A DNA stretch of 64,000 bases. Origin: Pseudomonadota bacterium (GTDB taxonomy: Bacteria > Pseudomonadota > Gammaproteobacteria > Xanthomonadales > SZUA-38). Under the pieces are notes generated by a model. It made no database searches, had not been told where the DNA came from, and worked only from the letters and a program-made list of their open reading frames with translations. Both the position numbers and the translations under genes were made by a program. Every line of letters begins with the position of its first letter. Positions within the stretch are counted from its first letter, which is position 1. Positions 35,828 to 56,804 of this stretch are shown here, one piece after another. The DNA lies in contig JBCCCR010000008.1 in NCBI GenBank assembly GCA_039033415.1, positions 1 through 64,000 on the forward strand, in the 5' to 3' direction.

Positions 35828-35859
35828 TGTCAGTTTACGCTGACTAATGACACTGTCAA
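35828..35859 (-). promoter_or_regulatory. bchC promoter with PpsR/CrtJ-type sites
   Basis: On minus, TTGACA (35859-35854) and TAAACT (35837-35832) are 16 bases apart. An 18-base site reading TGTC-N10-GACt on plus (35828-35845) differs from the PpsR consensus TGT-N12-ACA at one base and covers the -10. A second perfect dyad TGACA-C-TGTCA (35848-35858) covers the -35. The -35 also contains the crtF stop codon. Confidence 0.7.
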
Positions 35860-36983
35860 CTTTTTGTTACGTTACCTTCGCCGTCAATTTCGGGCGGCGG
35901 ACTCGGCTTCTGAACCGTCACCACGCTGGCCATGAGCGGCAGTGCCGTCGGGTGGTGCTCAAACAGCACAAATCCAACGCGCTCCAGGAAACCGCGCAGC
36001 TCCTTTAACGACCTCGGACGGCCGCTGCCCATCGCTTTGAAATAGAGCGAGAAGTAGGCACCCGCGATGGCTCGAGCGCCGGTCGTTTCGGCCATGGGCT
36101 CAGCGATCAACAGGCGCCCGCCGGGCGGCAGATAGTCAAAAATGCGCCGAAAAAGTGCCATCACCGTCGGGTCGTCATGGTCGTGTACGATCCGAATCAG
36201 CGACACAAGATCCGCGCCTTCCGGCAGCGGATCGTCGGCAAAGCTGCCGCCAAAAGCCTCAATGCGGCTGTCATCCTCAGCCAGCTTGCGCCGCGCCAGC
36301 TCCGCAACGGGTGGCAAATCAAACAGCTTGAGGTCCAGAGCAGGAAAATGCTCACCCACCTCGGACAAAAAGGTGCCGTCGCCGCCGCCGATATCCAGGA
36401 GGCAGCGGTGCAGGCCAAAGTCATACGCAGCGACGACCTGCTCCGCCACCATAATCTGAGACTGAGACATCAGATCGGAATAGCGCTGAGCGGCGTCCGA
36501 GGACACGTCCCCGGCAGCGTAGGGCCAGTAGGCAGCGAGCTCCGCCTTGACCTCACCGCGCAGCATGGCGAGCGGATCAGACAGGTCACGATAGAAGTGT
36601 TCGTGGTGCCGGATCATCGCCAGCAGGGAGGGATTGGCCAGCAGCACCGCGCCCTGGGGCCCCAAGGCAAACTCATCGCCAACACGCTGAACCAGGCCGG
36701 TGGCGGCGGCCGCATCGAGCAAGGCCAGCAGCGCGGGCGCCGGTAGCTGGACGCGGTCGACCAGCTGCACGCCGCTTAACGGGCCGTCTCGAAGGATCTC
36801 AAACAGCTCAAGCTGGACACACGCCTGCAGCGTTTGGGAGTAGACAAATCCTGCGACCAGATCAAACAGCGCGCTGGCGCGCTGGCGGACCAGAGGACGC
36901 AGCAAGCGCATCGCGCCGACGCGGCTGTGGAAAGCCGGATCAGACAGGCGACGGTTGCGCCAATTGATCCAGGATTTTTGCAG
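35856..36983 (-). CDS. crtF: Demethylspheroidene O-methyltransferase CrtF, non-ATG start
   Basis: The SAM-dependent methyltransferase shows CLLDIGGGDGTFLSEVGEHFPAL, then IRIVHDHDDPTVMALFRRI and GGRLLIAEPM. It O-methylates the tertiary hydroxyl of acyclic carotenoids. The first ATG is at 36911, but codons upstream read SWINWRNRRLSDPAFHSRVGAM, matching the WRNRLLASPRFQRW-type N-terminus of CrtF, and an in-frame stop lies at 37008. No ATG, GTG or TTG is available between, so a CTG at 36983, 36995 or 37001 probably initiates. The coordinate given uses the CTG nearest the gene; an AGGG at about 37004 favours one of the other two. Confidence 0.85.
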   Translation of the reverse strand: MQKSWINWRNRRLSDPAFHSRVGAMRLLRPLVRQRASALFDLVAGFVYSQTLQACVQLELFEILRDGPLSGVQLVDRVQLPAPALLALLDAAAATGLVQRVGDEFALGPQGAVLLANPSLLAMIRHHEHFYRDLSDPLAMLRGEVKAELAAYWPYAAGDVSSDAAQRYSDLMSQSQIMVAEQVVAAYDFGLHRCLLDIGGGDGTFLSEVGEHFPALDLKLFDLPPVAELARRKLAEDDSRIEAFGGSFADDPLPEGADLVSLIRIVHDHDDPTVMALFRRIFDYLPPGGRLLIAEPMAETTGARAIAGAYFSLYFKAMGSGRPRSLKELRGFLERVGFVLFEHHPTALPLMASVVTVQKPSPPPEIDGEGNVTKS

Positions 36984-37941: not shown

Positions 37942-37968
37942 GGGCGCACCGTCAGTAGTTAATTGTTA

Positions 37969-38000
37969 TTGACACTTGTGAGTGTCATGTAGAATAGACA
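37969..38000. promoter_or_regulatory. crtE/crtC divergent control region with PpsR site
   Basis: TGTC-N10-GACA at 37983-38000 is an exact match to the PpsR/CrtJ palindrome TGT-N12-ACA. It overlaps a second perfect dyad TGACAC-N6-GTGTCA at 37970-37987. On plus, TTGACA (37969-37974) and TAGAAT (37990-37995), 15 bases apart, form a likely crtC promoter that both dyads cover. A crtE promoter on minus is not clear. Confidence 0.8.
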
Positions 38001-52470: not shown

Positions 52471-54214
<1,744 letters not shown>

Positions 54215-54261: not shown

Positions 54262-54341
54262 AATCTAATGGGCGCGAGGCAATGTGTCAACTAAAGTGTA
54301 CGTAAGTGTAACTTGACAAATGATGGCTGTCGCGCTTTATT
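54262..54341. promoter_or_regulatory. Divergent bchF/aerR promoters bridged by a 34-base dyad
   Basis: TGTCAA (54285-54290) and TTGACA (54313-54318) are arms of a dyad centred on TACGTA (54299-54304). Each arm is also a perfect -35. On minus TTGACA is followed after 17 bases by TAGATT (54267-54262) for bchF; on plus TTGACA is followed after 17 bases by TTTATT (54336-54341) for aerR. Two one-mismatch copies of TGT-N12-ACA (54285-54302 and 54301-54318) fill the dyad. Confidence 0.65.
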
Positions 54342-54420
54342 CACACTTCTATATGTCAGATTGGCTGGCAGGCCGCGCGATGCGGATCAGCCGGGGCGGC
54401 CTGTCTGGGAGGACAGTCTC

Positions 54421-55302
54421 ATGCGTAACCGTCAGGGAACTGACCGTATCGACCACACCGAAGGGAGCACCCGCTGGGCCGGCAGCGCCGATTCCGAAGA
54501 CTCTGGCGATCAGGAAGGTGATCAACGACCGGCGGGGGATGATGCGTGGAATCAGCTTGAGTCGACCATCGAAGGAGAAATTGTTCCCCGCCTGATGATG
54601 GCTTTCCAGCAGCCCAGCGCGATGCCGATCGCCGCGCCCGTTGCTGCCGATCCGAACACCCAAATGGACGAGTTTGTAGACCTCATCCTCGCGGGTGACA
54701 CGCCCGCTGCGATTGGATTTATTCGGCAGGTGTACGGCGCCGGCTCCTCGCTAAAGCCCAGCTACCTCAATCTGATCACCGACTGCGCGCGTCAGCTCGG
54801 GAGCCTTTGGGACGAAGATCGATGCAGCTTCTTTGACGTAACGGCGGGAATCACCCGTCTACGCCAGATCATGCTGGAACTGAGCCCCCAGTTCTGTGCC
54901 TCCAACCGTCACGAAGTGCGGGAGGGTCTGCACGCGCTGATTCTCCCCGTGCCGGGTGATCAACACACGCTGGGCCAATCGACGGTGGTGGAATCCTTTC
55001 GCCGGGCCGGCTGGAACGTACAGGCCGGCACGTCCGAGACCGTCGGCGCCATCACCCGGCTCGTTGAGCGTCAGCATTTCGACGTGGTTGGCCTGTCGGT
55101 CAGCGCTGACCGATTTGTCGACGATCTCGGCCCGATCATCACCCGGATTCGCGAAGCTTCCTGCAACCCCAAGCTCAAGGTGCTGGTCGGCGGTCGATCC
55201 GTCGCAGCTCGAGACGGCCTGGCGGATGAGCTGGGTGCCGACGCCACGGCCGGCGACGGGCATGCTGCCGTGGCGGCTGCCGAACGCCTCGTCTGCCACT
55301 AA
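54421..55302 (+). CDS. aerR: PpaA/AerR, B12-binding antirepressor of PpsR
   Basis: From the ATG at 54421, with GGGAGGAC upstream, the protein has 293 residues. The first 60 residues are acidic and polar. The rest is a cobalamin-binding fold with SLWDEDRCSFFDVTAGITRLRQIM and the DxHxxG motif as Asp180-His182-Gly185 (GDQHTLG). In Rhodobacter capsulatus the homologous AerR binds B12 in the light and modulates CrtJ/PpsR. ppsR follows immediately, which supports that pairing. Confidence 0.93.
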   Translation: MRNRQGTDRIDHTEGSTRWAGSADSEDSGDQEGDQRPAGDDAWNQLESTIEGEIVPRLMMAFQQPSAMPIAAPVAADPNTQMDEFVDLILAGDTPAAIGFIRQVYGAGSSLKPSYLNLITDCARQLGSLWDEDRCSFFDVTAGITRLRQIMLELSPQFCASNRHEVREGLHALILPVPGDQHTLGQSTVVESFRRAGWNVQAGTSETVGAITRLVERQHFDVVGLSVSADRFVDDLGPIITRIREASCNPKLKVLVGGRSVAARDGLADELGADATAGDGHAAVAAAERLVCH

Positions 55303-55314
55303 TGAGCTTTCGCT

Positions 55315-56724
55315 GTGGCTGACAAAAATTCTTCGACTCTCGGCGAAAACTATTTCGCTGACCTGAGCCCGGCACAGCTGGCGACGATCGTCTCCGGCGC
55401 CAACGACCTGGCGCTGATCGTCGACAGTCAGGGTGTGGTTCGAGACGTCGCGGTGGAAGATCCCAAAGGCGCGATGGCCGGCGCCCCGGACTGGGTCGGC
55501 CAGCCCTGGGTGGACACAGTCACCGTCGAATCGCGGCCGAAGATCGAGGCGCTGATGGCCGAACAGAGCGGCTCACAATCACGCTGGCGTCAGGTGAACC
55601 ACCCGACCAGCACCGGGCTCGATCTGCCGATTATGTATCGCTCCTTTAATTGTCAGGATCACGCGATTGTGCTCGGTAAGGACCTGCGCCCATTGTCCCA
55701 GGTGCAGCAGCAGCTGCTCGACGTGCAGCACTCGATGGAAAATGAGTACGCGCGCCTGCATCACGCCGAAACCCGGTATCGCATGCTCTTTCAGCTGGCC
55801 GCAGAGGCCATCCTGATCCTTGACGCTGACGGTCGTTCCATCCAGGAAGCGAATCCAGCAGCGGCTCAGCTGCTTGGCGAGTCCGTGGCGAAGCTGGTTC
55901 GGCGCTCGCTGGCCGATTACCTGCGGGACATCGACCTGACCGAGCTGCTCGCCGAGTCGCGCTCCGCGGGTCAGGGGCGGGAGCTGAAGGTCAAGCTGCA
56001 GGACGGCCGCGAATGCCAGCTCTCCGCAACCCTGCTCCGGCAGGACGACGCGATGCTCTACCTGATTCATCTAACGCCCAGCGATCGCCAGCTGCTGCCG
56101 GACCGCAGCGATGAGGCAATGTCGACGCTGGCGGTGGTTCGCGAATCATCCGACGGTTTTGTGATCACCGACATGGACGGCCAGATTCTGGCCGGCAACG
56201 AGGCGTTTGTGCGCATGTGTCAGCTGGGCAGCGAAGCCCAGCTGAAGAATCAGCCTCTTGAGCGCTGGCTGGGACGCTCCGGCGTTGATATGCGGGTGAT
56301 CCGCAAAAACCTCAGCCAGCGTGGCGTGGTCCGCCAGTACAGCACCACGGTCAGTCCGGAGTTTGGCACCCCGCTGGAAGTTGAGCTGTCGGGCGTATCG
56401 GCCAGCGACGCCGAGCCGCCGTGCCTGGGTTTTGTCATTCGCCAGCTGCGCAGCGCCAGCCGCGGCGAAACGGAAGAGAAGTTTGTCAAACAGCCGCTCG
56501 GCAAGTCGCTAGAGCAGATGACCGAACTGGTGGGTCGGGTCCCGCTGAAAGATCTTGTACGGGAAACCACAGACCTGATCGAGCGCCTGTGTATCCAGGC
56601 AGCGCTCGAGCTGACTACCAACAATCGGGCCTCCGCGGCCGACATGCTGGGGCTGTCCCGGCAAAGCCTCTACGTGAAGCTGCGCCGCTACGGCATCGCT
56701 GACGGCAACGGCTCCGACAAGTAA
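55315..56724 (+). CDS. ppsR: Transcriptional regulator PpsR/CrtJ
   Basis: The 469-residue protein starts at a GTG and contains PAS-type domains (RMLFQLAAEAILILDADGRSIQEANPAAA and DGFVITDMDGQILAGNEAFVRMC) and a C-terminal Fis-type helix-turn-helix (ASAADMLGLSRQSLYVKLRRYGI). The cysteine in ERLCIQAALE just before the helix-turn-helix matches the position of the redox-sensitive cysteine known in Rhodobacter. PpsR represses bch, crt and puf genes aerobically through TGT-N12-ACA sites, several of which are present in this cluster. Confidence 0.95.
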   Translation: MADKNSSTLGENYFADLSPAQLATIVSGANDLALIVDSQGVVRDVAVEDPKGAMAGAPDWVGQPWVDTVTVESRPKIEALMAEQSGSQSRWRQVNHPTSTGLDLPIMYRSFNCQDHAIVLGKDLRPLSQVQQQLLDVQHSMENEYARLHHAETRYRMLFQLAAEAILILDADGRSIQEANPAAAQLLGESVAKLVRRSLADYLRDIDLTELLAESRSAGQGRELKVKLQDGRECQLSATLLRQDDAMLYLIHLTPSDRQLLPDRSDEAMSTLAVVRESSDGFVITDMDGQILAGNEAFVRMCQLGSEAQLKNQPLERWLGRSGVDMRVIRKNLSQRGVVRQYSTTVSPEFGTPLEVELSGVSASDAEPPCLGFVIRQLRSASRGETEEKFVKQPLGKSLEQMTELVGRVPLKDLVRETTDLIERLCIQAALELTTNNRASAADMLGLSRQSLYVKLRRYGIADGNGSDK

Positions 56725-56746: not shown

Positions 56747-56804
56747 TGTCAATACTCCGTGACTGTCACGTTTCGTTGACACTTACCCCTAGTCGCGCTA
56801 CCGT
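56747..56804 (+). promoter_or_regulatory. bchG promoter with tandem PpsR sites
   Basis: TGTC-N10-GACA at 56764-56781 is an exact PpsR/CrtJ palindrome. A one-mismatch copy (TGT-N12-ACt) lies at 56747-56764 and shares one base with it. TTGACA (56776-56781) and TACCGT (56799-56804), 17 bases apart, form a likely promoter; the -35 is part of the exact site. The ATG is only 10 bases after the -10. Confidence 0.75.

Follow-up and report, generated by a model that had tools for sequence, protein, structure and literature searches.

A compact dyad between bchF and aerR as a putative PpsR operator holding the −35 boxes of two divergent promoters

A 34-bp dyad in the photosynthesis gene cluster of a Pseudomonadota bacterium is probably a compact PpsR operator that holds the −35 boxes of both the bchF and the aerR-ppsR promoters and would shut the two together. 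The dyad, its fixed spacing and deep conservation, the promoter elements, the gene order and the co-occurrence with ppsR are all read from DNA sequence, and from them we infer that PpsR would bind here as a repressor of both transcription units, including its own.

Results

The window, by which we mean the whole stretch of 64,000 nt that was analyzed, contains a photosynthesis gene cluster, and the dyad lies in its bchF–aerR intergenic region (Table 1). Downstream of bchF are bchN, bchB, bchL and bchM. On the opposite side, aerR and ppsR are separated by only 12 bp and presumably, because of this short gap, form one operon; in Dinoroseobacter shibae, ppaA-ppsR is a single operon (PMC10890935). 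An earlier sequence-only reading of this DNA had proposed a single dyad between bchF and the divergent aerR, with arms TGTCAA at 54285–54290 and TTGACA at 54313–54318 around a centre TACGTA. All of these coordinates are exact, with the centre at 54299–54304, and the dyad is confirmed. The pattern TGTCA-N10-ACGT-N10-TGACA occurs a single time in the 6.4-Mb host genome, and in a congener (G026) the dyad is identical at 34 of 34 positions, versus coding-sequence DNA identities of 85% for bchF and 76% for aerR. As a sequence pattern, the dyad is beyond chance.

Two further observations concern the aerR leader. Upstream of its ATG, the aerR frame runs on without a stop to the dyad, giving a 329-aa open reading frame from a TTG at 54313 (region 54313–54420), but G026 has an extra base inserted just before the aerR ATG, and such an N-terminal extension is therefore not conserved. 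Within the leader, 37 bases (54349–54385) are the same in the window and in G026, even though aerR itself has diverged to the extent given above.

Table 1 Features of the bchF–aerR region in window coordinates
Feature	Position	Strand	Basis
bchF, 2-vinyl bacteriochlorophyllide hydratase, first gene of the bch operon	53732..54214	-	TIGR02020, PF07284
bchF −10 box TAGATT, 17-bp spacer	54262..54267	-	Promoter scan; hexamer common to relatives L093, L097, L098
34-bp dyad, putative compact PpsR operator, TGTCAA-N9-ACGT-containing centre-N9-TTGACA	54285..54318		Sequence; 34/34 in G026; 107/169 bchF loci
bchF −35 box (TTGACA on minus strand), also outer half of one PpsR-type site	54285..54290	-	Conserved before bchF; scan 10/12
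PpsR-type site TGT-N12-ACG, 5 of 6	54285..54302		Sequence; halves conserved
PpsR-type site CGT-N12-ACA, 5 of 6	54301..54318		Sequence; 2-bp overlap with site 54285..54302
aerR-ppsR −35 box TTGACA (putative), also outer half of the other PpsR-type site	54313..54318	+	−10-like enrichment 16–18 bases outward, z = 7.8
Exact TGT-N12-ACA over the aerR −10, 9 bp from the dyad	54328..54345		TGT lost in G026; spacing not enriched across loci
aerR probable −10 box TTTATT, weak, without A at position 2; 17-bp spacer	54336..54341	+	Score 4.7, 9th of 72 representatives; conserved in G026
aerR/ppaA, B12-binding antirepressor	54421..55302	+	PF02310, place before ppsR; GGAGG before ATG
ppsR/crtJ repressor	55315..56724	+	TIGR02040, 405 bits, cut-off 275

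To the bchF side, the dyad arm had been read as a consensus −35 box with TAGATT 17 bases away, and this is confirmed. A promoter scan of the region returned the bchF promoter only, with 10/12 matches (shuffles gave a mean of 0.3 per kb), and TTGACA-N16..18-TANNNT is present upstream of bchF in nearly all loci compared. Judged as a sigma-70-type promoter, with −35 and −10 boxes and a spacer of 16–18 bp, the bchF side of the window reads TTGACA-N17-TAGATT, and this predicted promoter is very strongly supported.

The predicted aerR promoter is supported less well. The sequence-only reading had also taken the aerR arm as a −35 box; TTTATT does stand 17 bases away, but it is a weak −10 that falls below the scan threshold because it has no A at position 2. 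For a comparison across loci, −10 boxes were scored in 72 representatives clustered by flank, taking the best score at spacers of 16–18 against mononucleotide shuffles; the clustering lowers the effect of kinship among the 72, and some relatedness remains. The mean best −10 score is 0.41 on the aerR side, versus −2.94 (sd 0.43) in shuffles (z = 7.8), with a peak only at 16–18 bases outward from the arm; on the bchF side the mean is 4.58 (z = 19). About one-third of the representatives are without a good aerR-side −10. A column-conservation profile alone had pointed to an aerR side without any −10, which was reversed once spacers of 16–18 bp were allowed.

These data bear on the possibility that the dyad is a PpsR operator of bchF only, with the aerR arm as a second operator half whose −35 likeness is a by-product and with the aerR-ppsR promoter located elsewhere. 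TTGACA is common to the PpsR half-site and the −35 consensus, so the arm can be explained without a promoter function, and besides the weak −10 of the window there is no single conserved −10 column on the aerR side. In one genome, moreover, the dyad lies at bchC, where nothing points to a divergent gene, and aerR of Rhodobacter capsulatus has two offset promoters, of which the upstream one is poorly conserved (PMC6199135). We nevertheless consider an operator for bchF only unlikely, given the confinement of the −10-like enrichment to 16–18 bases from the aerR arm and given that, in many alphaproteobacterial loci, the aerR ATG and its Shine-Dalgarno sequence lie 37–47 nt from that arm. This distance fits a transcript start approximately 30 nt from the arm and leaves scant space for another promoter.

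The spread of the dyad was followed in bchF loci from named genomes and further taxonomic draws, which amounted to 169 non-redundant loci from alpha-, beta- and gammaproteobacteria. Upstream regions were scored with a symmetric matrix of the 34-bp element trained on the first (named) set. With this matrix, which imposes the spacing and whose arms were selected for, so that the information content of the arms is inflated, a score above 20 was obtained upstream of bchF in 107 of the 169 loci, versus a maximum of 2.8 in shuffled regions. By draw, the dyad was present in 26/26 loci of an acetobacterial family, 26/28 of the family of Rhodopseudomonas, 6/7 of the order of Ectothiorhodospira, 9/16 of a Rhodospirillaceae order and 5/8 of the host's order, and matrix scoring did not find the full element in the Rhodobacterales of the named set. 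An independent count of TGTCA on the upstream side of the bchF −35 also peaks at one distance, with 21 of the 44 occurrences exactly 28 bases away, and the central ACGT, which is unselected in the column profile, is kept in nearly all sequences. Across 369 genomes of the host's class the pattern was found in five, four times at bchF/aerR.

The dyad is not strictly unique to bchF/aerR. One Rhodospirillales genome has a full copy before bchC (L105:1500-1533), and at another locus (L167) the dyad lies between bchF and bchG with no adjacent aerR and with ppsR approximately 7 kb off on the same contig; because of these two copies, it is not strictly a two-promoter device. Other arrangements were also seen. 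Two Halieaceae loci (L032 and L087) have ppsR directly divergent from bchF, no detected aerR and the bchF half of the element only, and some betaproteobacterial loci (L011, L012 and L018) lack the dyad and carry individual PpsR-type sites, close to bchF and further towards aerR, whereas it is retained in their relatives L197 and L198.

PpsR as the predicted ligand is supported by co-occurrence, by a corresponding site in Dinoroseobacter and by half-site resemblance. Among the loci examined, the dyad is confined to genomes that encode PpsR: the two dyad loci checked that have no aerR next to them come from genomes with PpsR at another place, and no PpsR above the cut-off was found in the genomes of five loci (L073, L041, L094, L096 and L159) at which both the dyad and a neighbouring aerR/ppsR are missing. 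Where the dyad is absent, which is mostly in Rhodobacterales, the bchF half persists as TGT-N12-ACA (consensus TGTAAgTTTtaaTTGACA), and the unselected internal bases of this half correlate with those of the dyad (correlation 0.57, permutation p 0.0075). Mutation of the site over the bchF −35 of D. shibae together with a second site raised bchF activity to that of a ppsR mutant (PMC10890935). A regulator other than PpsR on the central TTACGTAA-like palindrome would account for the central ACGT, which is the least PpsR-like part of the dyad and is mismatched to TGT/ACA in both halves. Such a regulator is very improbable in view of the absence of the dyad from the five PpsR-less genomes and of the corresponding bchF half, which is a PpsR site in Rhodobacterales.

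As for the geometry, the one-mismatch PpsR sites that had been assigned to each half of the dyad are both present, but they are not separate, as they have the central CG in common, which gives an overlap of 2 bp and a distance of 16 bp between centres. One mismatch in a six-base motif is easily reached, and such a match carries little weight by itself. Neither half is the full TGT-N12-ACA of a classical operator (each matches at 5 of 6 bases), and the conserved consensus has the same centre. The documented gap between tandem CrtJ/PpsR sites is 8–9 bp (PMC4452267, PMC9144470), instead of which the dyad has its overlap, and it resembles classical operators in covering a promoter element of a photosynthesis operon (−35 and/or −10), here the bchF −35. 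The centres of classical tandem sites are 26–27 bp apart, an 8-bp gap corresponding to 26 bp or approximately 2.5 helical turns. At approximately 1.5 turns the dyad would be one turn shorter, and the helical phase would thereby be kept.

The window also contains two pairs of sites with classical spacing, one before bchC (35828–35871) and one between a crtE-like and a carotenoid-hydratase gene (37957–38000). A second compact pair lies before bchG (56747–56764 and 56764–56781), with one base in common and centres 17 bp apart; it has the same arrangement in G026, with the last base changed, and was not found in the more distant G004 and G078. The exact TGT-N12-ACA at 54328–54345 was considered as a third operator at classical spacing and rejected, given that its TGT is absent in G026 and its position is not enriched across loci. 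It is probably lineage-specific or due to chance.

Discussion

In the switch that we propose, two PpsR-type sites, each made of an outer half (TGTCA or TGACA) and the common central ACGT, would place two PpsR dimers in the same relative phase as on a classical tandem operator. Bound PpsR would then cover both −35 boxes and shut the bchF and aerR-ppsR promoters at once, by which pigment genes, antirepressor and repressor would rise and fall together and PpsR would limit its own synthesis through negative autoregulation. The sequence-only reading had tied the antirepressor to the pigment operon but had missed the part of ppsR in the coupling; with ppsR directly behind aerR, the switch would include autoregulation of the repressor.

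An alternative in which colliding polymerases make the two promoters mutually exclusive, with PpsR secondary and with bchF and aerR-ppsR expressed alternately, starts from the −35 hexamers being only 22 bp apart, which is less than the stretch that a pair of polymerases usually touches on the upstream side of the −35 boxes. Collision as the main control is nonetheless improbable, as conservation of the central ACGT and of the internal bases goes further than two promoters would require. Furthermore, ppaA/ppsR and photosynthesis transcripts of Sediminicoccus shift in the same direction (PMC10949492), which would speak against alternation if that strain carries the dyad.

Joint repression by PpsR may not be the only state of the dyad. 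In R. capsulatus, AerR does not simply release CrtJ but alters its placement on DNA, and the long and short forms of AerR act oppositely (PMC5362033, PMC6199135). Since AerR alters CrtJ binding, the block of both promoters may be one of two states, and an activated state is possible. In Sediminicoccus KRV36, ppaA and ppsR track the photosynthesis genes in both direction and extent, and the only PpsR sites that a motif search gave are those at bchC and puc (PMC10949492). The dyad, which is predicted for KRV36, may explain the co-expression of ppaA-ppsR despite the lack of a detected PpsR site there. We see an even chance that the compact operator, which a search for TGT-N12-ACA overlooks, was the ancestral means of control in proteobacterial photosynthesis clusters, both −35 boxes included, and that Rhodobacterales later moved to separate sites.

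The dyad offers a testable wiring by which bacteriochlorophyll synthesis would be coupled to the amounts of PpsR and AerR in many phototrophs, and outside Rhodobacterales it would serve as a better motif with which to predict control by PpsR. A structural question also follows, namely how PpsR, reported as a tetramer, is accommodated on two overlapping sites.

The closest known system is the bchF/ppaA region of D. shibae, where bchF and ppaA-ppsR are likewise divergent with overlapping promoters and where PpsR sites lie over the bchF −35 and −10 (PMC10890935). Unlike the dyad, these are separate TGT-N12-ACA sites, with no compact dyad or common −35 pair described, and the Rhodobacterales loci compared here lack the aerR-side half, unlike the dyad loci. 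The tandem operators of R. capsulatus bchC and Rubrivivax pucB/crtI (PMC5362033, PMC4452267) are similar in that paired PpsR sites overlap promoter elements, but they combine an 8–9 bp gap with one promoter, whereas the dyad combines a 2-bp overlap with two predicted promoters. The aerR promoter region of R. capsulatus resembles the present locus in that aerR lies inside the photosynthesis cluster and is itself regulated; its two offset promoters are accompanied by FnrL sites, and no common −35 dyad is described (PMC6199135). Full-text literature searches, which covered few subscription papers, returned no account of the compact dyad with both −35 boxes, of its breadth across three classes or of its absence from Rhodobacterales. 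Overlapping divergent bchF/ppaA promoters under PpsR are already published, whereas the compact, conserved arrangement with two −35 boxes appears to be a variant not described before, the overlapping-site geometry of which differs from the documented PpsR geometries.
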